Of a stretch of DNA of 39,183 bases, positions 4,380 to 21,043 are shown one piece after another. This stretch comes from an uncultured Bacillota bacterium (GTDB lineage: Bacteria > Bacillota_I > Bacilli_A > RF39 > UBA660): NCBI GenBank assembly GCA_947364595.1, contig CANATJ010000006.1:1-39183 (forward strand), in the 5' to 3' direction. Numbering within the stretch: position 1 is the first letter of the stretch; each line of letters opens with the position of its first letter. The notes under the pieces were generated by a model. That model did not search any database. It was given only the letters and a program-made list of their open reading frames with translations, and was not told where the DNA came from. A program made the position numbers and the translations under genes.

Positions 4380-4520
4380 ACTAGACACCTCCAAAAAAAA
4401 GTGAATACAAAACGTATCCACTTCATGTATCAGTTTATAACTTTAATGACATTTTACCCATCGCCTTACTTAGCAATCGGGTGAGAAGTGGACACTTCTT
4501 CTTTCCTTTTTTCAATTACA
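4380..4520 (-). promoter_or_regulatory. L20-type leader with attenuator before infC-rpmI-rplT
   Basis: This is the 5' leader between the promoter and infC. An early strand GTGTCCACTTC (4495-4485) can pair with GAAGTGGATAC (4424-4414), forming an antiterminator. The same GTGGATAC is the 5' arm of a terminator next to infC, so the structures are mutually exclusive. Between them is a stem-loop with ACCC/GGGT outer pairs and ATTGC/GCGAT inner pairs. This layout matches the L20 leader described in Bacillus, where bound L20 favours termination. The sequence shows the alternative pairings; L20 binding is by analogy. Confidence 0.8.
4393..4421 (-). terminator. Attenuator hairpin before infC
   Basis: On the minus strand GTGGATAC (4421-4414), loop GTTTT, GTATTCAC (4408-4401), then eight T (4400-4393). 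It ends one base before the infC Shine-Dalgarno site. Its 5' arm also takes part in the antiterminator. Confidence 0.85.
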
Positions 4521-8929: not shown

Positions 8930-10333
8930 TTAATTTATTTCGTCATATTTTTGACCATTAATAATCCCGCTTATATATTTATGAGCCATACTAACCGTCT
9001 TCTCATCCGGAATCATAACATACAAATTTCTTCCAGGCATCGAATAACATTGACCTTTAGATCCATTTCCATCCACACTTATCGAATTAATATTCCAAGT
9101 AGGCATACCATTTAATTGAAACTTAATAAACTGTTTCATATCATTATGACTCATGTTAGTTTGAAAAATATTAGATAAACTTGTCATTAACTGATTATAA
9201 TTTTTTAAAAGAACCTCACTATTAGTAATTTTATTTAATATAGCAGCAATAACCTCTTCTTGATGTTTTCCTCTATCACGATCACCACCAGGTAAAACAT
9301 GTCTTATTCTTGAAAACATCAAAGCTTCTTTACCATTTAAATGATTAATACCCTTTTTAAATCTATATCCATATTCACTAAAATCAAAAGGCGAATATAC
9401 ATCTACCCCACCAATAGAATCAACAACCTTTATAAGGGTAGTAAAATTAACTCTAAAATAATAATCAATATCTATATCAAGAAAATCTTCAATAGTTAAA
9501 GCCGACATAGAAATACCATATATTCCAGCATGAGTAAGTTTATCCTTAGCATTTATACCATGCAATTTAACATAATAATCCCTAGGAATATGCGTCAGCA
9601 AAATCTCTTTTGTTTTAGGATTAACTGTCATAATAATATTAACATCACTTCTAGAATTAGTACTAATATCACCAGAAACATCAATACCACTTATCAAAAT
9701 ATTAAAACTATTTTTAGTAATATTAGTCTTACCACCAGAAACTAAACTTTCCGTTTTTAAAGTTATCTTTTTAATAATTCTTACCCTTTTAGAAAAGTCC
9801 TTATTTTCATCACAAATCAAATCATAATAAGCGGAATTTAAAAATACTCCATCTACTTTATCCATACCATCAGTTATATCCACAACATTATTTAAAGTAA
9901 CTTTTTCAAAATTAATTTCCTCTTCTAACTTTGAAACCGCATCTTTATTCTCCATAAAAACACCAATGTTTTTACCATTTAAATCATTAATATGTTTAAA
10001 ATCACTACTTTTTGAAACAATCAAATAATATGTCTTAGTTTCCTCTTTTAAATCATTTATATTGCCAAAAAAACTATTAGTTGTATGTAAATAAAAAATT
10101 AAAGACGCACTACCTATAATAAAAATTATCTCAAATATAGATAAAAAAACCTTAGAAACTCCCTTTTTTATAAATTTAAATCCTAAACTTACTAATACAA
10201 AAAGGAAAACAATAGCTCCAATCAATATAAATAAATATTTATCAGGTAATATTCCTAATATCCAAATTTCAGTGCCCAAGGCCAAAAAAGAAATTAAAAA
10301 TAAAACATATATTAATCTATACAAAATTTTCAT
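8930..10333 (-). CDS. LytR-CpsA-Psr (LCP) family glycopolymer ligase
   Basis: LCP proteins move undecaprenyl-linked polymers (capsule, teichoic acid) onto peptidoglycan at the outer membrane face. Here 467 residues begin with three or so hydrophobic helices (about 5-110). An extracellular region of about 90 residues follows, with a periplasmic-binding-protein-like look (LNGKNIGVFMENKDAVSKLE), and then the LCP domain with NSFNILISGIDV, SRSDVNIIMTVNP, THIPRDYYV and GKEALMFSRIRH. GAGGTGAGATA precedes the ATG at 10333; an upstream in-frame start lacks such a site. It is transcribed away from the capsule operon, which fits a role in attaching that polymer. Confidence 0.92.
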   Translation of the reverse strand: MKILYRLIYVLFLISFLALGTEIWILGILPDKYLFILIGAIVFLFVLVSLGFKFIKKGVSKVFLSIFEIIFIIGSASLIFYLHTTNSFFGNINDLKEETKTYYLIVSKSSDFKHINDLNGKNIGVFMENKDAVSKLEEEINFEKVTLNNVVDITDGMDKVDGVFLNSAYYDLICDENKDFSKRVRIIKKITLKTESLVSGGKTNITKNSFNILISGIDVSGDISTNSRSDVNIIMTVNPKTKEILLTHIPRDYYVKLHGINAKDKLTHAGIYGISMSALTIEDFLDIDIDYYFRVNFTTLIKVVDSIGGVDVYSPFDFSEYGYRFKKGINHLNGKEALMFSRIRHVLPGGDRDRGKHQEEVIAAILNKITNSEVLLKNYNQLMTSLSNIFQTNMSHNDMKQFIKFQLNGMPTWNINSISVDGNGSKGQCYSMPGRNLYVMIPDEKTVSMAHKYISGIINGQKYDEIN

Positions 10334-10355
10334 TATCTCACCTCTAGTCGCCAAT

Positions 10356-10384
10356 ATTCTACTAAAAAACAAGAACAAAGTCAA
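10356..10384 (-). promoter_or_regulatory. Promoter of the LCP gene
   Basis: On the minus strand TTGACT (10384-10379), 17 bases, TAGAAT (10361-10356), about 22 bases before the LCP start codon. Confidence 0.7.
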
Positions 10385-10502: not shown

Positions 10503-10604
10503 ATACTCACCTATTATAATAATAGCAAATTCCCCATACAAAATCCATAAACTTAACAAATAATGGAAAAAAATCCTTTCAAAAAAACATTTCCCCATTT
10601 AAAT

Positions 10605-10633
10605 TTGACAAAAAATACGTTTTTTGCTAGTAT
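10605..10633 (+). promoter_or_regulatory. Promoter of the capsule operon
   Basis: A perfect TTGACA (10605-10610) is followed after 17 bases by TAGTAT (10628-10633). An alternative TATAAC lies three bases further on with a 20-base spacer, which is less favourable. It is the only clear promoter seen before the ten-gene plus-strand run. Confidence 0.65.
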
Positions 10634-10636
10634 AAC

Positions 10637-10685
10637 TCACCGTAAACGAAAGGGACTTCTTATATAAAGAAGCAATCAGGGGTGA
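10637..10685 (+). promoter_or_regulatory. Leader hairpin that can hide the Shine-Dalgarno site of the capsule operon
   Basis: TCACC (10637-10641) can pair with GGTGA (10681-10685), the Shine-Dalgarno region of the first gene. Inside is a second hairpin, CTTCTT (10656-10661) with AAGAAG (10667-10672), and unpaired GTAAACGAAAGGGA. The arrangement would allow control of translation by a ligand, protein or temperature. I could not match it to a known riboswitch class. Confidence 0.4.
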
Positions 10686-10689
10686 AAAC

Positions 10690-11913
10690 ATGAAAAAAAC
10701 ATTTTTAATATGCTTAATTACATTACTATCACTAGGTAATATAGGTGCGCAAGCACTTACATCACAAACAACCATTAAAAGCACTAAAAAACTATCCAAA
10801 TATATAACCAACTATGACCAAAAATATATAGTCTATAAAACAAACGATAATAATACCGTTTATAGTTTAGATGCAGATAAACAATCATTAAAAAAGAAAA
10901 CAACAATTTCCTTTTATGGTAATGCTGACTCTGGACTATTATATATACTAGAAAACAGTTATCCAAATAAAAAAATAACTGGTAACTCAAAAATAGACCA
11001 ATATATAACTCAAAGTGCGATATGGTTATATTTAGACAAAACAAAACAAGGGACACCTGTAAATGAATTAAACCTAGAAAACAACAAAAAAGACACATAT
11101 GGATTAATAAAAAATTATATTAAGCCATTAGTAAAAGAAGCTTTAAATGCCAAAAACAATAATTATAAAACTACAATGCCAAGCATTAACGTAAATATAG
11201 ATAATACTGTTTTAACACTTTCTAAAAACAAAAAATACTATGAATCAGACTATATCACAGTTTCTTTAGCTACGGCTGATAAATATGAAGTCATTGCCAA
11301 AAACATAATAGTAATGGATGAAAATGGCAATGAAAAAACTACCTTTAATTTTAAAGAAAAATTTAAAATTAAAGTTCCAAAAAATAATAAAAATAAAAAA
11401 ATTAGTGTAACTGTAAAAGCAACAGGAATTCAAAATATGGCAAGAATGTATAAAACAAACGATAATAAGTTACAAAAGGTAATCGGTTTATTCCAAGAAA
11501 AACATTCGTTAAATCAAACAATTAACTTCACTATTCCATTAAAACAAACATGTAAATTTATAGACGGAATATACCATGACAAAGCTGGAAAAGAAACTGA
11601 TAAAGATACATATATGAAAGAATGTAATAATATTTGTAAAGTCATTGATAACACATACTATGACAAAAATGGCAAAAAGACAAACGAAAAAACATATACA
11701 AAAGAATGTAAAAATTCTTGTTCATTTGATGGTAATACATACTATGGATTAGATAATAGAAAAGTCGATGAATATACCTATAAACAAGAATGCGGACACG
11801 AAATAAATGTTCCAAGCACTAATTCTAATATCTCATCAACAACTATAATTTCTAGTATATTACTTATAATAAGTGGATCAATATTACTATATAAAAAACA
11901 AAAGATAAATTAA
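10690..11913 (+). CDS. Secreted, wall-anchored-looking surface protein with thioester-domain-like N-terminus
   Basis: The 407 residues start with a signal peptide (about 1-22). The segment around 57-112 resembles bacterial surface thioester domains: VYSLD at 57-61 aligns with their VYCLD, and TQSAIW at 107-112 matches the conserved Gln motif. The Cys that would form the thioester is Ser59 here. A beta-rich stretch (about 165-285) follows. Next come three tandem repeats with Cys pairs 288/312, 316/340 and 344/368, each repeat exactly 28 residues. The end is VPSTN (374-378), a hydrophobic helix and a KKQK tail, resembling a variant sortase signal. It precedes the capsule co-polymerase gene by 11 bases without a terminator, so it is first in that operon. 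Its binding target is unknown. Confidence 0.75.
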   Translation: MKKTFLICLITLLSLGNIGAQALTSQTTIKSTKKLSKYITNYDQKYIVYKTNDNNTVYSLDADKQSLKKKTTISFYGNADSGLLYILENSYPNKKITGNSKIDQYITQSAIWLYLDKTKQGTPVNELNLENNKKDTYGLIKNYIKPLVKEALNAKNNNYKTTMPSINVNIDNTVLTLSKNKKYYESDYITVSLATADKYEVIAKNIIVMDENGNEKTTFNFKEKFKIKVPKNNKNKKISVTVKATGIQNMARMYKTNDNKLQKVIGLFQEKHSLNQTINFTIPLKQTCKFIDGIYHDKAGKETDKDTYMKECNNICKVIDNTYYDKNGKKTNEKTYTKECKNSCSFDGNTYYGLDNRKVDEYTYKQECGHEINVPSTNSNISSTTIISSILLIISGSILLYKKQKIN

Positions 11914-11924
11914 GGGAGGATATC

Positions 11925-12596
11925 ATGGAAGAACTTAACGCAAAAGAAATCATAAATTTCTTTATATCAAAAATATATTTTATAGTTATTTTTATCATCA
12001 TCTTTGCAGCTGCTGGTTATTTCTACTTTGCCCATATTCAAACACCACGCTATCATAGTTCAACAACTATTATCTTAGTAAGTGAAAAAGAAGATACAAA
12101 TGCATCAAATCTAAACCTAAATAAACAATTAGTTTCAACTTATAGTGAAATTGTAAAAAATAGAAGCGTTTTAAATAAAGTTATCAACAAACTTGATTTA
12201 AACATAAGTGCGCAAAAATTAGCCAAAGACATCTCAGTTACCTCTATTAACGATACTGAAATCATTAAAATAGAAGTTAGTAATAAAAACAAAAAATTAG
12301 CTCGTGATATTGCCGAAGAAGTAGCTATAACATTCATATCAGAAGTTAACGACATATATAACCTACAAAACGTTACCATTTTATCACAACCACAAATAGA
12401 AAATACTCCTTATAATGTTTCAATCGTCAAACAAACAGCGCTATCAGGATTTACTGGATTATTCATAAGTACAATAATAGTATTTCTAATCTATTACTTT
12501 GACACTACCATAAAATCCACAGAAACAATCGAAAACAAAGCAAAATTAACAGTATTAGGAACTGTAGAAAAGGTGAAAATTAATGGAAACAAATAA
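11925..12596 (+). CDS. cpsC: Capsule polysaccharide co-polymerase, Wzz/CpsC type
   Basis: This membrane protein governs polymer length and activates its partner tyrosine kinase. The 223 residues have two transmembrane helices (about 16-34 and 165-188) flanking an extracellular coiled region, with both termini cytoplasmic, as in CpsC/CapA/YwqC. A conserved segment near the second helix reads LSQPQIENTPYNVS. GGGAGG precedes the ATG at 11925. Its 3' end overlaps the next gene, the kinase, by 14 bases, the usual arrangement for a split BY-kinase pair. Confidence 0.9.
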   Translation: MEELNAKEIINFFISKIYFIVIFIIIFAAAGYFYFAHIQTPRYHSSTTIILVSEKEDTNASNLNLNKQLVSTYSEIVKNRSVLNKVINKLDLNISAQKLAKDISVTSINDTEIIKIEVSNKNKKLARDIAEEVAITFISEVNDIYNLQNVTILSQPQIENTPYNVSIVKQTALSGFTGLFISTIIVFLIYYFDTTIKSTETIENKAKLTVLGTVEKVKINGNK

Positions 12597-13272
12597 AAAT
12601 GAAATAATTTTAAATGATAACCCCAAGTCATCTTTTAGTGAATCTATAAAATCAATTAGAGCAAATTTAAAATTTTCTGATTTAGATGGAAATAAAAAAG
12701 TAATTCTAATGACTAGTGCTAACCCTGGTGAAGGAAAAAGCTTCATAACAGCCAACCTAGCTGCCGCCTTTGCTAAAGATAACAAAAAAACATTAATCAT
12801 CGATGCTGATTTAAGAAAAGGACGCCAACACAGAATATTCCAAACAAGAAACAATACAAATCTTGGTTATTCAAACATGATCGTAAACGTAAATAAAGAA
12901 GGATTTGATATCACATCTTACATAAATAAAACAAGTATCCCTAATTTAGACTTTATAAATTTAGGAGCTACTCCACCTTCTCCAACTGAATTATTATCAG
13001 CTGATAATAATAAAATTTTGTTAAACATTTTAAAAGAAAAATATGATTATATTTTCTTAGACTGCCCACCAGTTTTAGGACTTAGTGATACATTAATATT
13101 AAGTAGATTATCTGATTATAATATTGTTGTTGCTACTAATAAAAAAACAAAATTAGAAAATTTAATTGACGTAAAAAAAGCTTTTGAAAAGGCAAAAACA
13201 AGTGTAACTGGGGTTATTTTAAACCAAGTAGAAAAAAAACATAATAATTATTATGGATATTATGGTGAATAA
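12583..13272 (+). CDS. cpsD: Tyrosine-protein kinase, BY-kinase, CpsD type
   Basis: This cytoplasmic autokinase works with CpsC to control polymer assembly. Walker A is SANPGEGKS (45-53), Walker A' is LIIDADLRKG (71-80) and Walker B lies around YIFLDCPP. The extreme C-terminus carries a tyrosine cluster, NNYYGYYGE (221-229), with four Tyr that are the expected autophosphorylation sites. At 229 residues it is the normal length of the Gram-positive form. AAAGGTG sits inside the end of cpsC and serves the ATG at 12583. Confidence 0.95.
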   Translation: METNKNEIILNDNPKSSFSESIKSIRANLKFSDLDGNKKVILMTSANPGEGKSFITANLAAAFAKDNKKTLIIDADLRKGRQHRIFQTRNNTNLGYSNMIVNVNKEGFDITSYINKTSIPNLDFINLGATPPSPTELLSADNNKILLNILKEKYDYIFLDCPPVLGLSDTLILSRLSDYNIVVATNKKTKLENLIDVKKAFEKAKTSVTGVILNQVEKKHNNYYGYYGE

Positions 13273-13274
13273 AT

Positions 13275-13991
13275 ATGAAAGATCTTCATACCCACATTCT
13301 ATTTGGAATTGACGATGGCGCTTCTAATTTAGAAGAATCTATCGAAATGTTAAAAAAATTGCAAGAAAATGGCGTTACCGATGTTATGTTAACTCCACAT
13401 TATATTGAAAAAAGCATATATAATTGTAACAACAAAGAAAAAGAAAAAATATTTAAAAAAATAAAAGAAGAATTAAAACAAAAAAATCTAAACATTAATA
13501 TTTATTTAGGTAATGAAGTTATGATAAATAACAATCTAATTACTCTTTTAAAAAATGAAATAACCACATTAAATGGCTCAAGATATTTATTAATAGAATT
13601 ACCAATGAATAATGAATTTAAAGACTTAGATTTGATCATAAAAGAATTAATTCAAAACAAAATAATTCCTATTATTGCCCACCCAGAAAGATATTATTAT
13701 GTAATAAAAGACTATAAATGGGTAAAAAATTATTTAGAAATGGGCGTATTATTCCAAGGAAATTATGAAAGCCTATTTGGAAAATATGGCTATCACTGCA
13801 AAAAAACACTAAAAAAATTATTAAAAATAAATGCTATTCATTTTTTAGGATCAGACATCCACAAAAAAAATGCAACATGTAATCTAAACAAACTAAATAA
13901 AAAATTAAAAAGAATAATAACAGACGAAAAAACAATAAAAAAATTAACAAACGATAATTTTACAAAAGTTATTAAAAACGAATTAATATAG
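13275..13991 (+). CDS. cpsB: PHP-family tyrosine-protein phosphatase, CpsB/YwqE type
   Basis: This manganese-dependent phosphatase removes phosphate from the CpsD tyrosine cluster. The 238 residues show the PHP metal ligands: DLHTHIL (H5, H7), GIDDGA, MLTPHYIE, LGNEVM, PIIAHPERYY and LGSDIH. It begins three bases after cpsD. Co-polymerase, kinase and phosphatase therefore form a complete regulatory cycle. Family assignment is secure; the target is inferred from context. Confidence 0.94.
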   Translation: MKDLHTHILFGIDDGASNLEESIEMLKKLQENGVTDVMLTPHYIEKSIYNCNNKEKEKIFKKIKEELKQKNLNINIYLGNEVMINNNLITLLKNEITTLNGSRYLLIELPMNNEFKDLDLIIKELIQNKIIPIIAHPERYYYVIKDYKWVKNYLEMGVLFQGNYESLFGKYGYHCKKTLKKLLKINAIHFLGSDIHKKNATCNLNKLNKKLKRIITDEKTIKKLTNDNFTKVIKNELI

Positions 13992-14011: not shown

Positions 14012-14635
14012 ATGTATAAGTATATTAAAAGAATTATTGACATTATTTTAGCCGCCATACTTTTAATTTTATTTATGATACCAATGATCATAATTACTTT
14101 GTGTATAAAACTAGATAGCAAAGGTCCAGTGTTATTTAAACAAAAAAGAACTGGTTATAAAGGTAAAGAATTTACCTTATATAAATTTAGAAGTATGTCC
14201 ATAAATAACGATGTATTAGACTTTAAAAATCAAAATAAAATTACCAAAGTTGGCTATTTTTTGAGAAAAACTTCTTTAGATGAATTACCTCAATTTATAA
14301 ACATTTTGAAAGGCGAAATGTCTTTTATCGGACCAAGACCTTGGATTACTGAGTATGCAAGGTTATTTACTGAAAAACAAAAAAGAAGATTAGATGCTAT
14401 TCCAGGCATCACTGGACTTGCTCAAGTAAACGGAAGAAATAATATAAGTATTATTGATAAAATTAATTATGATATAAAATATGTAGAAAATTTTTCATTT
14501 GTAATGGATCTAAAAGTAATTTTAAAAACCATCAAAACCGTATTTTCCAAACAAGGCGCTGACATCGATAAAAAAGGGATAAAAAATGAACTAGATATCT
14601 TAAAAGAAAATTACCTAAACATTCAAATCATATAA
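14012..14635 (+). CDS. Initiating sugar-phosphate transferase (bacterial sugar transferase family)
   Basis: This enzyme transfers a sugar-1-phosphate from a UDP-sugar to undecaprenyl phosphate, starting each repeat unit. The short 207-residue form holds one N-terminal membrane segment (about 8-30) and the catalytic domain with FKQKRTGYKG, FTLYKFRSM, RKTSLDELPQ, GEMSFIGPRP and PGITGLAQVNGR. It lacks the extra N-terminal membrane domain of WbaP/CpsE. The sugar (for example galactose or N-acetyl-amino sugar) cannot be read from the sequence. Confidence 0.92.
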   Translation: MYKYIKRIIDIILAAILLILFMIPMIIITLCIKLDSKGPVLFKQKRTGYKGKEFTLYKFRSMSINNDVLDFKNQNKITKVGYFLRKTSLDELPQFINILKGEMSFIGPRPWITEYARLFTEKQKRRLDAIPGITGLAQVNGRNNISIIDKINYDIKYVENFSFVMDLKVILKTIKTVFSKQGADIDKKGIKNELDILKENYLNIQII

Positions 14636-14646
14636 GGGGGCAAAAC

Positions 14647-15399
14647 ATGAAAGATCTTGTTAGTATTATCATACCAGTTTATAATGCTGAAAAATTTATC
14701 GAAGACACCATCAAAAGTGTAATTAATCAAACATATAAAAACTGGCAACTAATTATCATAGATGACCATTCTACAGATGGTAGCGTTAATATAATTAAAG
14801 AATTTACAAAAAACAATAATAAAATCAAATTAATAAAGCTTAAAAAAAATAACGGCGTAGCCATTGCTCGTAATAAAGGAATAAACTTAGCTAAAGGTAA
14901 ATACCTATGCTTTTTAGATGCCGACGATTTATGGCATCCCGAAAAATTGAACAAACAAATTTCTTTCATGAAAAAATATAACTGCCCTTTTAGTTTTACT
15001 GGTTATGAATTTGCCGATATTACAGGTAAACCTAATGGTAAAAAAGTTTATATTAAAAATAAGTTCACATATAAACAAGCATTAAAAAACACCACAATTT
15101 GGACAAGCACAGTCATGATAGATTTAACTCAACTATCATCAAAACAAATATTAATGCCAAATATAAAAAGTGAAGACACAGCCACTTGGTGGAACATATT
15201 AAAACAAATAGATTATGCTTATGGATTAAACGAAATTTTATCATATTATAGAAGAAGCAATAACACACTTTCTTCAAATAAAATAGAAGCTATAAAAAGA
15301 ATATGGAATTTATATCGTAATCATGAAAAATTAAGTATACCATATAGTTTATATAACTTTTGCCATTACGCATTTAATGCAGTAAAAAGAAGGATTTAG
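14647..15399 (+). CDS. Glycosyltransferase family 2
   Basis: This is a 250-residue GT-A fold transferase with VSIIIPVYNAEKF at the start, the nucleotide-binding DDHSTDGS motif, RNKGINLAKG and the metal-binding FLDADDLW. It adds one sugar to the lipid-linked repeat unit at the cytoplasmic membrane face; donor and acceptor are unknown. Related to the enzyme at 16603 but clearly distinct and shorter. Preceded by AAGGGGG. Confidence 0.9.
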   Translation: MKDLVSIIIPVYNAEKFIEDTIKSVINQTYKNWQLIIIDDHSTDGSVNIIKEFTKNNNKIKLIKLKKNNGVAIARNKGINLAKGKYLCFLDADDLWHPEKLNKQISFMKKYNCPFSFTGYEFADITGKPNGKKVYIKNKFTYKQALKNTTIWTSTVMIDLTQLSSKQILMPNIKSEDTATWWNILKQIDYAYGLNEILSYYRRSNNTLSSNKIEAIKRIWNLYRNHEKLSIPYSLYNFCHYAFNAVKRRI

Positions 15400-15404
15400 A
15401 TAAA

Positions 15405-16610
15405 ATGATAAAAAAAATAAAAGATAGTTTAAAATATATAAAAATAAAAGATATTGCTAAAATATTTATTTTTATTATTATTTTAATTCCTAGTTTAATA
15501 TATAAACTATACTTAAAAATAATAAACAAAAAATTATACTTAATATGTGAAGATCCAAACGAAGCCTGTGATAATGGTTATCACCTATTTAAATATATAA
15601 GAACTTATCATAAAAAAGACAACTTCTATTATGCCATAAACCCCAAAGCTAAAGACTATAAAAAAGTTAAAAAGTATGGCAATATAATTAAATTTGGTAG
15701 TTTAAAACATTGGATTTATTATTTGTCAGCCACCAAAAATATCAGCACTCATAAATACGGCAATCCAAATCCTCCCCTATTTTACGTTTTACATGTTTAT
15801 TTAAATTTATTTAACAATAGAATCTTCCTTCAGCACGGAATTACAAAAGATGATTCAAAATGGATGTATTACAAAAACACCAAATTTAATACCGTCGTAT
15901 GTGCTGCTAAAGATGAATATGAATACATCAAAAAAAACTTTGGTTATCCTAAAGGAAGCGTTAAATATTTAGGCTTCCCAAGATTTGATAACTTAAAGAA
16001 AAACAAAACGAATAATAAACAAATAGTAATAATGCCAACATGGAGAAATTGGCTTGGACGAGATACAAATAATAAACAAATAGACTTTAAAAACGAAATG
16101 TATTATCAAAAATACAATAGTTTATTAAATAACACAAAACTAAATAATTACTTAAATAAAAATAATATCATCCTATACTTTTTTCCACATAGAAATATGC
16201 AAAAATATAAAAATTATTTTAAACAAACAAAAAACATAAAAATAGTCACAAACCAAGATATAGATATTCAAGATTTAATCATAAAATCTGCCTTAATGAT
16301 CACTGATTATTCTAGTGTTGCTATGGATTTTGCCTATATGAAAAAACCTGTTTTATATTATCAATTTGATCAAAAGCAATATAGAAAAAATCAATTACAA
16401 CAAGGATACTTTTCCTATGAAAAAAACGGCTTTGGAAAAATATATAAAAACGAAAATAATTTAGTAAAAGAAATTATAAACATATGTGAAAACAATTACA
16501 AAGTAGAAGAAAAATATCTAAACAGAATAGAAAAATTCTTTGAATTAAATGATAATCAAAACTCTAAAAGAGTATATGAAATGATAATAAAAGGAGAAAA
16601 ACATGAATGA
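15405..16610 (+). CDS. CDP-glycerol glycerophosphotransferase-like enzyme (TagB/TagF family)
   Basis: This membrane-associated enzyme of the family adds glycerol phosphate (or a related polyol phosphate) from a CDP donor. The 401 residues have an N-terminal hydrophobic segment (about 17-40) and the family signatures FLQHGITKDDSKW, YLGFPRFDN, IVIMPTWRNWLGR, FFPHRNM and ITDYSSVAMDFAYMKKPVLYY. The hits around HG and DYSS correspond to catalytic and CDP-binding regions in TagF. In a capsule operon this suggests a phosphopolyol decoration or backbone. The exact substrate is inferred from family only. It overlaps the next gene by eight bases. Confidence 0.88.
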   Translation: MIKKIKDSLKYIKIKDIAKIFIFIIILIPSLIYKLYLKIINKKLYLICEDPNEACDNGYHLFKYIRTYHKKDNFYYAINPKAKDYKKVKKYGNIIKFGSLKHWIYYLSATKNISTHKYGNPNPPLFYVLHVYLNLFNNRIFLQHGITKDDSKWMYYKNTKFNTVVCAAKDEYEYIKKNFGYPKGSVKYLGFPRFDNLKKNKTNNKQIVIMPTWRNWLGRDTNNKQIDFKNEMYYQKYNSLLNNTKLNNYLNKNNIILYFFPHRNMQKYKNYFKQTKNIKIVTNQDIDIQDLIIKSALMITDYSSVAMDFAYMKKPVLYYQFDQKQYRKNQLQQGYFSYEKNGFGKIYKNENNLVKEIINICENNYKVEEKYLNRIEKFFELNDNQNSKRVYEMIIKGEKHE

Positions 16611-17637
16611 TTTAATAAGTGTTATTATACCAGTTTATAACGCTGAAAAATATATTGAAAGTTGTCTAAATGCCGTACTAGGACAAAGCTATGAAAATAT
16701 AGAAGTAATTGTTATCAATGATGGTTCAACCGATAATAGTTTAAAAATAATAAAAAAATTAAAAGACAAAAGACTAAAAATAATTGATAGAGAAAATCGT
16801 GGCGCCGCCTATTGCCGATACCAAGGGGCAAAAATTGCCAAAGGAAAATACATCATCTTTATAGACGCTGACGATTATATTAAGCCATCATACATCAAAA
16901 TACTTCATGAACAAATTTCAAAAAACAAAGTAGATATCGTAAGATGCCATTTTATAAAATATAAAAATGGAAAAACAATTAAAGAGAAAGCCGTTATAGA
17001 TGAAGACAAAATTTTTAAAAAAGCAAATTATGAACCATTCATATACGACTTGCTTTATAATTCAATCTATTTTAATAGTATGTGTAAACAAATAATCAAT
17101 GCCGATATTTTAAAAAACATATCTGTTAAAAACTATGATATTAACTATGGTGAAGATGTATTATATGAAATGCAAATAATCAACAATTCAAAATCTATTA
17201 TGATTATTAATGATTACTTATACTTTTATAGACAAAACGAAAACAGTATTACTTATACAAAAGATTTAAAAGTAATAAAACAAAAATTATTATCAATATG
17301 TAAATCACATCAAATACAACTTGAAAACATAAAAAATAGTAAAATAAAAAACAAAAATAAATACTACAATTTTGTCGCTAACAAATTTTTAAAAACCCTA
17401 TATCTTCAATACTGTAATCTAATTAAATATAGCAAAAATGAAGAAAAAACTATAAAAGAAATATATAACTTAGAAAGTACAAATGAATTATTAAATAACT
17501 TAAATAAAAAGATAATTGAAAAAAATCTATTTTATAAAATAGGTATGAAATTAATTTCTAAAAAAAATATTAAAACATTAAAATACTATACCAAATTTAT
17601 AGTATTACCACTTTTAAACCATCACAATAAAAAATAA
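16603..17637 (+). CDS. Glycosyltransferase family 2
   Basis: This is a 344-residue GT-A transferase: LISVIIPVYNAEKYIE, VINDGSTDNS, RENRGAAYCRYQGAKIAKG and FIDADDYIKPSY. The C-terminal third is Lys/Asn-rich and likely helical. AAAGGAG lies in the end of the preceding gene. It probably adds a further residue to the repeat unit; donor unknown. Confidence 0.9.
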   Translation: MNDLISVIIPVYNAEKYIESCLNAVLGQSYENIEVIVINDGSTDNSLKIIKKLKDKRLKIIDRENRGAAYCRYQGAKIAKGKYIIFIDADDYIKPSYIKILHEQISKNKVDIVRCHFIKYKNGKTIKEKAVIDEDKIFKKANYEPFIYDLLYNSIYFNSMCKQIINADILKNISVKNYDINYGEDVLYEMQIINNSKSIMIINDYLYFYRQNENSITYTKDLKVIKQKLLSICKSHQIQLENIKNSKIKNKNKYYNFVANKFLKTLYLQYCNLIKYSKNEEKTIKEIYNLESTNELLNNLNKKIIEKNLFYKIGMKLISKKNIKTLKYYTKFIVLPLLNHHNKK

Positions 17638-17650
17638 AGGAGGCATAACT

Positions 17651-18781
17651 ATGACCTGTAAAAATAACATTATATATTATCTAGCATTTTCTCTGTTAGT
17701 TATTTTACGTTTAACTACAGGTTCTGTTTTATTCCCCCTACCCCTATATTTTAATTATATATTATTAATAATCATAAGTAGTTTATTTGGTTTAAAAATA
17801 ATTTTAGATAACCATACATTTAAAGAATATTTATTTATTATAATACTAACAATTTTAACCATATATATATATATAGTTGCTAATACCTATTATATATTCC
17901 TTGGCTTTTTATCCATTATGGCTCTTAAAAACGTTAATATTAAAACTGTTATAAAAATTGATATAATTTTAAAATTAACCTTCTTATCAATTCACAGTAT
18001 TACTTATTTATTCACCTGGTTAATAGATTATAATATTATTTTAGATACAATAAAAATTTCCTCACTAAAAGGAATAAGCCATAGCTTATTTTTCCCAAAT
18101 CCCAACTTTGTTGGAGCATTAATAATTTGGTTAGTATTTGATTTTTTATGTTTAAAAAAAGAAGTAAAAACAAAAGACATTTTTATCGGATTAATAATCG
18201 TTATCATAAGCTATTTAATATGTAAATCCAGAACCCCTTTATATATTTATATATTATTTATAGTATTATCATTTATAAAAAATCAAAAAATATTAAACTT
18301 TTTAGCCAAATACTCTTACTTAATATTAGCTATAATTACACTATTTATAATTAGTATAAATAATGTTGACAATGAATTATTTATTAAATTAAATAGTTTA
18401 TTTAGTAATAGATTTATGTACTCAGTAGCAGCCTATAATAAATATGGATTAAGTATTTTACCAAATGCTCTAGCAAATAATTATTCAGATTTTTTAATTA
18501 TCGATAGTTTCTATGTTAGAAGCTTTATAAATTATGGAATCTTAACTTTAATAATTGTTGGTACAATAAATATATTTATCCCTAAAAAAAATTATAAATT
18601 AGAAAAAAGAATATTCATTCTAGCCTCTATTTATATGTTTTTTGAAGTAATTCCAATATATACTGGACTATCTTTAGCCTACATAATAATTGGAAATACA
18701 ATTATTAATAACAAATATAAAGAAAGCGATGAAGTTTATGAAAGAAATAACTGTCAAAAAGCAAAAAGAATTACTTGTTGA
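17651..18781 (+). CDS. Wzy-like oligosaccharide repeat-unit polymerase
   Basis: This is a highly hydrophobic 376-residue protein with about ten predicted membrane segments and one larger external loop around FSNRFMYSVAAYNKYGL, the usual layout of O-antigen/capsule polymerases. Sequence identity in this family is always weak, so the call rests on topology, SRTPLYIY/NR-type loop residues and position between glycosyltransferases and the flippase. AGGAGG precedes the ATG. The last 18 codons or so overlap the start of licD. Confidence 0.75.
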   Translation: MTCKNNIIYYLAFSLLVILRLTTGSVLFPLPLYFNYILLIIISSLFGLKIILDNHTFKEYLFIIILTILTIYIYIVANTYYIFLGFLSIMALKNVNIKTVIKIDIILKLTFLSIHSITYLFTWLIDYNIILDTIKISSLKGISHSLFFPNPNFVGALIIWLVFDFLCLKKEVKTKDIFIGLIIVIISYLICKSRTPLYIYILFIVLSFIKNQKILNFLAKYSYLILAIITLFIISINNVDNELFIKLNSLFSNRFMYSVAAYNKYGLSILPNALANNYSDFLIIDSFYVRSFINYGILTLIIVGTINIFIPKKNYKLEKRIFILASIYMFFEVIPIYTGLSLAYIIIGNTIINNKYKESDEVYERNNCQKAKRITC

Positions 18782-19538
18782 CCTATTAATTTACATCGAT
18801 AAAATTTGTAAAAAAAACAATATTAATTACTCATTAATTGGTGGCTCTTTAATAGGTAGTATCAGACATAAAGGAATTATTCCTTGGGATGATGATATCG
18901 ATATTATATTATTAGATGATGAATATGAAAAACTTATAAATATCTTAAAAAAAGAAAATGGAAGATATAAATTATTGGATCATAGATATAATAATTCATA
19001 CTATTATCCATTTGCCAAAATAATTGATACTAAAACGACAATCAAAGAAGATGGCTATAAAGAAATAGAAGGATATGGGGTTTACCTAGACATTTTTAAA
19101 TTTTTTAAAGTTTCAAACAATAAAACCTTAAGAAAAATCCAATATAAATTATTAATGTTTCAAAAAAATGTTTTAAGATTTTACTACTGTAATAAACATA
19201 ATAATAAAAACGCCTTTATTAAAAATTTAGCCGTTAAAATTTTAAACAAAATTGGCCATAAGCCTATATTATTTATTTATAACAAAATATGTGATATACA
19301 CAAAAATAGCAAAAATTCAAAATATATATCATCTAATTGGCCAACTTTTGGTGAAGAAAAATCAGTTCAAAAACTAAGCAATTTTCAACAATTTATAAAT
19401 GCTGATTTTGAAGGTCATAAAGTCATGATAACCAAAAACTATGATGAAATACTTAAAACAACCTTTGGTAATTACATGAAATTCCCACCTAAGAATCAGC
19501 AAGTATCTCTTCACCACTTTAAAGCATACTGGAAGTGA
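18729..19538 (+). CDS. LicD-family phosphotransferase
   Basis: LicD-type enzymes transfer phosphocholine or a similar phospho-substituent from a CDP donor to a surface glycan. The family signature is intact: LIGGSLIGSIRHKGIIPWDDDIDI, with the Asp cluster as probable metal ligands, and a C-terminal region ending in MKFPP. The longest frame starts at 18690, but family members start near MKEIT; the ATG codons at 18729 or 18738 are more likely, and 18729 is listed. This gives about 269 residues, overlapping the polymerase gene by 53 bases. No CDP-choline pathway gene is in the window, so the substituent is open. Confidence 0.88.
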   Translation: MKFMKEITVKKQKELLVDLLIYIDKICKKNNINYSLIGGSLIGSIRHKGIIPWDDDIDIILLDDEYEKLINILKKENGRYKLLDHRYNNSYYYPFAKIIDTKTTIKEDGYKEIEGYGVYLDIFKFFKVSNNKTLRKIQYKLLMFQKNVLRFYYCNKHNNKNAFIKNLAVKILNKIGHKPILFIYNKICDIHKNSKNSKYISSNWPTFGEEKSVQKLSNFQQFINADFEGHKVMITKNYDEILKTTFGNYMKFPPKNQQVSLHHFKAYWK

Positions 19539-19543
19539 TTACA

Positions 19544-21043
19544 ATGAGAAAGAAAAAATCTTTTTTTAACATGGTAGGTTCCCTAGGATCATATGCCATT
19601 TCTTTAATATTTACCTTTATTACCCAAAGATGCCTAATTCATATTTTAGGAATAGAATATTCTGGGGTAAATGGCTTATTTAACAACATCCTTGCTATCT
19701 TATCAATTGCTGAACTAGGTATTGGTAGTACTATAATTTTTAGACTATATAAACCAATTGCTGAAGACAATAAAGAAGAAATAAAATCATGGATGAAATT
19801 TTATAAAATATGTTATAGATTTGTAGCCTTATTTATTACAATAATTGGTTTAATAATAATACCACTTATTCCAATGTTAATAAACTCTCCCGCAATTAAA
19901 GAAAGTATTATCACATTATATTTAATCTCATTACTAGACGTAGTCATATCTTATTGTATGACTTATAAAAGATCATTACTTTATGCCAATCAAAAAAATT
20001 ATATAATAAACATTGTTCATATTGGTTATACAATACTTATGAATTTAACACAAATTATTTTAATTTATTTATTTAAATCATATATTTTATATCTCATCAT
20101 TAAAGTTATTTATAGATTAATAGAAAACATTATCATAAACTTATATGTAAATAAAAATTATCCTTATATAAATGAACCAGCTAAAGACATAAACAAAGAG
20201 GAAAAAAAAGATGTGTTTGAAAGAATCAAAGCTATTTTCCTTCAAAAAATATCCTTTGCCATCAACAAAGGAATTGATGGAATAATCATATCTTACTTTC
20301 TTGGTATTGCCACAGTTGGTTATTATACAAACTATAACTTAATCGTTATGACAATTAGTAATATTATATATCAAACAATCTCTAGCTTAACCGCTAGTGT
20401 TGGTAATTTACTTACTGAAAATAATATAAATAAAAATTATGATATTTATAAAAAAATCAATCTATTAAACTCATTTCTAACTGGTATGAGTATTATCATA
20501 TTTATATGCATTGCCACTCCATTTATAACTATATGGATTGGAAACAAATATCTATTTTCAAATTACATACTAATCGCCTTTGCTTTATATCTTTATACAG
20601 ACAGTATTAGAAGATCAATCACCTTATACAAAGAAGCAGCTGGTATTTGTAAAGAAGATAAGTATATGTATATTATTATGACTATTATCAACTTAACCGC
20701 ATCAATTATCTTATGTAAAATAACTGGCGTTATCGGAGTTATATTAGGAACATCAATCAGTTATCTATTCTTAATGATTTATAGCTATCCAAAATACATT
20801 TATAAACCTCTTTTTAAAAAAGGCCTTAAAAATTACTATAAAGATAACTTAACATATTTAGTATTTATTATAATTGCTTCAATTACTTCATTTACTATAT
20901 GTAATCAAATAACTTTAAATAATAGCTATTTACAACTAATATTTAACGGAATAGTATCTATTATTATCGGGTTAATTATATTCATAATATTTTTTAGGAA
21001 AAAAGAAGAATTTCAATACTATATCAAACTAATAAAAAGATAA
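19544..21043 (+). CDS. Wzx-type polysaccharide flippase (MOP superfamily)
   Basis: This integral membrane protein moves the finished lipid-linked repeat unit across the membrane. The 499 residues have about twelve to fourteen hydrophobic helices, with the family-like start FFNMVGSLGSYAISL and GVNGLFNNILAILSIAELGIGS near residue 40-60. GGAAGTG is placed for the ATG at 19544; the in-frame GTG at 19535 lies inside this site. It closes the operon and is followed by a terminator. Confidence 0.9.
   Translation: MRKKKSFFNMVGSLGSYAISLIFTFITQRCLIHILGIEYSGVNGLFNNILAILSIAELGIGSTIIFRLYKPIAEDNKEEIKSWMKFYKICYRFVALFITIIGLIIIPLIPMLINSPAIKESIITLYLISLLDVVISYCMTYKRSLLYANQKNYIINIVHIGYTILMNLTQIILIYLFKSYILYLIIKVIYRLIENIIINLYVNKNYPYINEPAKDINKEEKKDVFERIKAIFLQKISFAINKGIDGIIISYFLGIATVGYYTNYNLIVMTISNIIYQTISSLTASVGNLLTENNINKNYDIYKKINLLNSFLTGMSIIIFICIATPFITIWIGNKYLFSNYILIAFALYLYTDSIRRSITLYKEAAGICKEDKYMYIIMTIINLTASIILCKITGVIGVILGTSISYLFLMIYSYPKYIYKPLFKKGLKNYYKDNLTYLVFIIIASITSFTICNQITLNNSYLQLIFNGIVSIIIGLIIFIIFFRKKEEFQYYIKLIKR

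Follow-up and report, generated by a model that had tools for sequence, protein, structure and literature searches.

A predicted class II thioester-domain surface protein without the reactive cysteine heads a capsule operon in an uncultured Bacilli lineage

The 39,183-nucleotide stretch of DNA analysed here (the window) belongs to a genome, G000, that is 89% complete, and the organism was judged to be an uncultured, gut-associated lineage of Bacilli. The open reading frame at 10690..11913 (+ strand) encodes a 407-residue surface protein, which was assigned by Pfam, phmmer and an AlphaFold model to the class II thioester domain (TED) proteins and which lacks the reactive Cys. We consider it likely that this is a sortase-anchored class II TED protein that lost its Cys in the ancestor of a capsule-linked clade, and that it now acts as a non-covalent head displayed together with the capsule.

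The fold of the head was analysed through both sequence and structure. The protein matched PF08341 (E 9e-7; 29.7 bits against a cut-off of 22), and a phmmer search of PDB sequences matched BaTIE, the TIE protein of Bacillus anthracis (6fwv), with E 2e-8. An AlphaFold2 model built with 46 homologues had a mean pLDDT of 85.6, and most of the head was above 90. Foldseek with this model returned 6fwv (E 1.8e-15) and 6fwy (E 1.4e-14). In VIA-align these two entries scored Z 19.3 over 241 residues and Z 17.6 over 255 residues, followed by other TEDs (Z 10-12) and unrelated Ig-like folds (Z below 9). The structural match spanned residues about 25-285 and included the seven-stranded beta-sandwich insert of class II. 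The predicted head is a class II TED, so the thioester-type domain suspected in the sequence-only reading was recovered and not an unrelated fold. The window protein shares with BaTIE (6FWV), EfmTIE86 (6FWY) and SaTIE (6FX6) the predicted fold and insert, the aligned Cys and Gln positions, the TQxxPhiW motif, secretion and a sortase-type tail. However, these three proteins have Cys where the clade of the window protein has Ser or Gly; moreover, the window protein carries small Cys repeats instead of CnaB isopeptide or ester stalks, and its gene heads a capsule operon.

In BaTIE, the thioester joins Cys71 to Gln266, and the bond-forming Gln, some 200 residues past the Cys, is part of a weak PhiQ-zeta-Phi-Phi motif (PMC6194298). 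Residues were counted along the phmmer alignment, which placed Ser59 of VYSLD (57-61; codon 10864..10866, + strand) on Cys71 and Gln262 of LQKVI (codon 11473..11475, + strand) on Gln266. The Cys of the [YFL]C-Phi-zeta motif is thus replaced by Ser, as had been proposed earlier, and by Ser, Gly and Gly in the three other clade members (G008, G034 and G025). The Gln of PhiQ-zeta-Phi-Phi is retained and is 96% conserved in the family. Taken as pairs at positions 59/262, the clade has Ser/Gln in the window, Ser/Thr in G008 and Gly/Gln in both G034 and G025. The window protein therefore misses only the Cys half of the thioester pair. Because Cys is absent at position 59, a Cys-Gln thioester is chemically impossible, which upholds the earlier view that no such bond can form. 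The same view had also placed the Gln motif of the thioester at TQSAIW (107-112). Its location as a TED motif was correct but its role was not, given that TQxxPhiW is a third, structural TED motif whose Gln and Trp are non-essential for the bond (PMC4450167, PMC6194298) and pack against the Cys backbone in known structures (PMC6194298). TQSAIW was accordingly rejected as the thioester Gln site in favour of Gln262. In G008 and G025, the Gln of this helix motif is changed to Glu.

The residue at the Cys site was compared among homologues. The window protein alone, used as query against the genome contigs in a first scan, gave no match. The Cys column was read in 98 distinct homologues, taken from the genus and from its neighbours, and contained 85 Cys, seven gaps, three Gly, two Ser and one Ala. 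Four of the six Cys-less homologues were the capsule-linked proteins (with Ser in the window protein and that of G008, and Gly in those of G034 and G025), and the other two came from a distant long-branched group (L049, L055); outside the capsule-linked clade, 85 of the 87 relatives having a residue at this site keep the Cys. From other genera of the class, 29 Pfam TED matches picked by score were examined, and every one of them also carried it. The correspondence between Cys and Ser or Gly among homologues was clear. Besides the window protein, its genome encodes two TED proteins that have the Cys; the first lies beside hisS, and the second has SpaA-type stalk domains and is next to a sortase gene. 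Maximum-likelihood analysis of 92 heads recovered the capsule-linked four as monophyletic (100/100) on a long stem, with Cys-bearing hisS-linked proteins as their sister group (98/97). Since the four form one clade, the Cys is best read as lost once, before the four species split; its tie to the capsule locus is therefore one coincidence and not a replicated association. The hisS-linked TEDs of the same genus are about 32-40% identical to the window protein overall, and several share its C-x23-C repeats and have a VPNT tail; however, they keep Cys59 and Gln262 and do not adjoin capsule genes. A distant TED-like group of the same genus (L049 8433-9500, L053 8083-8940, L055 7116-8177) was also observed, in which the VPPT or VPAT tail is kept and the sites, where readable, hold Ala or Gly at the Cys position and Thr, Ile or Leu at the Gln position. 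By these residues it appears to be an independently disarmed TED.

The window protein consists of a signal peptide (residues 1-24), the TED head with its beta-sandwich (25-285), three Cys repeats (286-370) and a sortase-type tail (373-407). The repeats (11551..11793, + strand) have the period of 28 residues and the paired Cys 24 residues apart that had been described before, the pairs being 288/312, 316/340 and 344/368. They were modelled as beta-beta-alpha units with modest confidence, and the repeat region folded alone reached a pLDDT of only 68. Matches of the repeats to phospholipase A2 entries in PDB (E 0.4-1.9) were rejected as chance hits driven by the cysteines. The same C-x23-C repeats occur in one to six copies in Cys-bearing relatives and at the end of an LytR-CpsA-Psr (LCP) protein in G012 (L065 8168-10237). 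They are also present in two large proteins from G012 and G034 (L063 7161-10748 and L064 9136-11775; 1195 and 879 aa), whose gene neighbourhoods in the two species are similar. Between the repeats and the tail, G034 and G025 have a KAKAEKE helix, and a fifth species, G035, has one too.

The tail (11806..11910, + strand) reads VPSTN, membrane helix, KKQK. Its resemblance to a sortase signal, noticed earlier, was borne out by the tail sequence and by the VPxT motif, which is near-invariant across 94 homologues. NCBIfam models of EF2685/EF0750-type and LPXTG anchor tails gave weak matches (17.2 and 13.1 bits), below the curated cut-offs, and the motif is VPST, not LPXTG. Four Sortase matches above cut-off were present in the window's genome, in agreement with the expectation of a sortase gene. 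With a signal peptide, a Pxx-type C-terminal motif, a membrane helix and a basic end all present, we infer that the TED protein is a sortase-anchored surface protein. Elsewhere in this genome (G000:C27), L270 2829-5943 encodes a canonical Cys-bearing TED protein whose stalk has five SpaA-type domains and whose tail reads VPNTG, and it overlaps the start of a sortase gene; these two are likely a cognate sorting pair.

The TED gene stands first in a capsule operon, as had been claimed, and the operon was classed as Wzx/Wzy-type cps. Upstream lies a divergent LCP gene (8930..10384, - strand), which is its neighbour in all four species. Downstream, all on the + strand, are cpsC, encoding a Wzz-type chain-length protein (11925..12596), cpsD, encoding a BY-kinase type ATPase with a Tyr-rich C-terminus (12583..13272), cpsB, encoding a CpsB/CapC PHP phosphatase (13275..13991), a gene for an initiating sugar transferase (Bac_transf; 14012..14635) and polymer-specific genes (14647..21043). 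The polymer-specific part contains two family 2 glycosyltransferases, a CDP-glycerol glycerophosphotransferase, LicD, a flippase and a membrane protein that is a possible polymerase. With the TTG start from which it was called, the LicD frame (18690-19538) shares 92 bases with the gene before it, and its true start is probably a later ATG. The start of cpsC follows the TED stop codon after 11 nt and has a good ribosome site ahead of it. Nothing resembling a terminator was found between the two genes, again as claimed. One promoter and the 11-nt junction are consistent with a single TED-cps transcript.

The order LCP, divergent from TED-cpsC-cpsD-cpsB, was found in four species of the genus (G000, G008, G034 and G025). 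In G035 the contig starts inside a KAKAEKE-rich stretch whose end, VPNTNAE plus a membrane helix, immediately precedes cpsC. The anticipated link to capsule genes was thus seen in four species and a contig-cut fifth. Beyond the LCP gene, rimP-nusA-infB was present in the window's genome and G034 but not in G008, and the polymer genes downstream differ between species while the TED gene stays. Because the order is kept while the outer neighbours and polymer genes vary, the TED gene belongs to an LCP-TED-cpsCDB module of one species group and not to a polymer type. Of 44 genomes from the genus, 14 contained a cpsB relative. The cps loci of G004, G023, G028 and G029 had no TED gene just before cpsC, although in G023 the contig ends there. 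A literature search of open-access papers found no TED proteins linked to capsule genes.

Given this location, we considered whether the TED protein acts in capsule or wall-polymer assembly, with the head or repeats binding nascent polymer or peptidoglycan and aiding LCP attachment or positioning. The fixed slot of the gene, flanked in four species by the LCP gene and cpsCDB, and the like repeat that ends the LCP protein of a relative, agree with such a role. However, the TED gene is constant where the polymer-specific glycosyltransferase genes vary from species to species, an argument against a polymer-specific role. The joint function in polymer binding or anchoring that the sequence-only reading had suggested was not supported. 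Furthermore, the four cps operons without a TED gene just before cpsC do not fit an assembly role, the nearest relatives with C-x23-C repeats adjoin hisS and not capsule genes, and family members look like proteins that are exported and sortase-anchored rather than like enzymes of assembly. The protein may take a direct part in polymer assembly, but the polymer mix and the TED-less cps operons in the genus weaken this reading, and we regard it as unlikely.

The region upstream of the TED gene was also analysed. A near-consensus promoter, TTGACA-17-TAGTAT with an extended TG (10604..10633, + strand), lies 56 nt ahead of the TED start codon. It is of a rare type that mostly precedes surface-protein genes. 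The promoter is followed by a conserved 5' leader (10634..10689, + strand) with CACCGTAAACG, a CUUCUU/AAGAAG hairpin and a G-rich ribosome site, GGGGUG, for which a function in mRNA stability or translation control may be inferred. All four species share conservation of the 90 bases preceding the start codon, and a sequence model of this stretch also matched, though more weakly, upstream of other genes for surface proteins in the genus, including hisS-linked TED genes. The strict pattern TTGACAA-N12-16-TGNTANTATA had four sites in the window's genome and none in a reversed control; exported or membrane proteins are encoded after at least three of these sites, and surface proteins followed the sites in G034 (3/3) and G022 (2/2). 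The promoter was read as a strong class for abundant surface proteins, which here would also drive the capsule genes.

The promoter-plus-leader type (ATTTGACAAA ... TGNTANTATA, a C-rich start, GTAAAC, a small hairpin and a GGGGGG ribosome site) was observed mainly before surface-protein genes across the genus, at window 10604-10689 and at G066:C4, G022:C45, G012:C33, G005:C19, G059:C154, G000:C42 and others. The leader matched no Rfam family and was dropped as a known RNA; the type is possibly a shared control element outside the Rfam families. When 13 leaders were folded, many had a small hairpin between the likely transcription start and the ribosome site, which is most simply interpreted as a 5' hairpin that stabilises the mRNA, with a regulated leader possible. 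A switch that sequesters the Shine-Dalgarno (SD) sequence is possible as well, since a 5' CCxCC often pairs with the G-rich ribosome site in these folds (z 0 to -4.5), but the likely transcription start lies at or past CCxCC and SD sites are G-rich anyway. Separately, an L20 ribosomal-protein leader (RF00558) was detected at window 4387-4509 (- strand), just above the gathering score.

TIEpLS20, a class II TED adhesin from plasmid pLS20 of B. subtilis, loses its function when its Cys is changed to Ser in the laboratory (C68S; PMC8092201), and Ser59 of the window protein is the same change in natural form. TIEpLS20 needs the Cys for function, whereas in the window's clade absence of the Cys is the conserved state. 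The effect of C68S means that a disarmed TED might instead be decaying, that is, a leftover whose gene is kept only for the promoter and leader of the capsule operon. Besides the reactive residue, further site positions have changed (Gln262 to Thr in G008; the Glu in TQxxPhiW of G008 and G025), and the conserved promoter and leader lie directly upstream of the gene. On the other hand, the frames are full-length and open in four species, with 48-55% identity to the window protein, and pairwise dN/dS within the clade was about 0.25-0.41, well below 1, although dS near or above 0.8 makes these values rough. The signal peptide, repeats and sorting signal are all kept. Moreover, 33 of the 40 TED columns conserved in at least 80% of relatives are unchanged in three or more of the four clade members, and the seven changed columns include 54, 59, 61, 108 and 113, in or beside the Cys and TQxxPhiW motifs; C59, Q108 and W113 fall in the two motifs around the thioester. 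These results point to an intact gene under purifying selection, and the pattern looks like a fold retained with its reactive site released, not a dying gene. Decay is therefore very unlikely.

Thr-Gln ester bonds occur in other adhesin domains. An intramolecular ester between Ser59 and Gln262, or a comparable cross-link that replaces the thioester, would suit the presence of both residues in the window's species and the family-wide conservation of Gln262, but we give it hardly any weight because the pair is not kept in the three other species and known ester domains are Ig-like with a dedicated acid-base pair (see also PMC12679949).

We thus favour a sortase-anchored TED with a non-covalent head. 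Given that the glue-forming Cys is gone, holding or recognition of the target by the head is probably non-covalent. The head would keep the TED binding cleft and bind its ligand non-covalently, the candidate ligand being a surface molecule of the host or of a neighbour cell, with an envelope glycan less likely. The Cys repeats would form a short disulfide-braced neck, lengthened in three species by the long KAKAEKE helix. Driven from a surface-protein-type promoter, the capsule operon would make this protein together with the capsule, placing the head at or beyond the polymer surface. A more specific proposal, which we advance as speculative and rather doubtful, is that the pseudo-TED is a dedicated and obligatorily co-made capsule partner, with a neck that lengthens with the polymer and a non-covalent head that recognises the glycan of its own or another cell.

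These proteins represent a natural clade in which the Cys was dropped and the fold kept under purifying selection, at the head of a capsule operon. With Ser59, the same change as TIEpLS20 C68S, the clade allows TED functions to be tested directly, apart from the covalent bond, and it raises the question of why a surface protein is tied to capsule expression.
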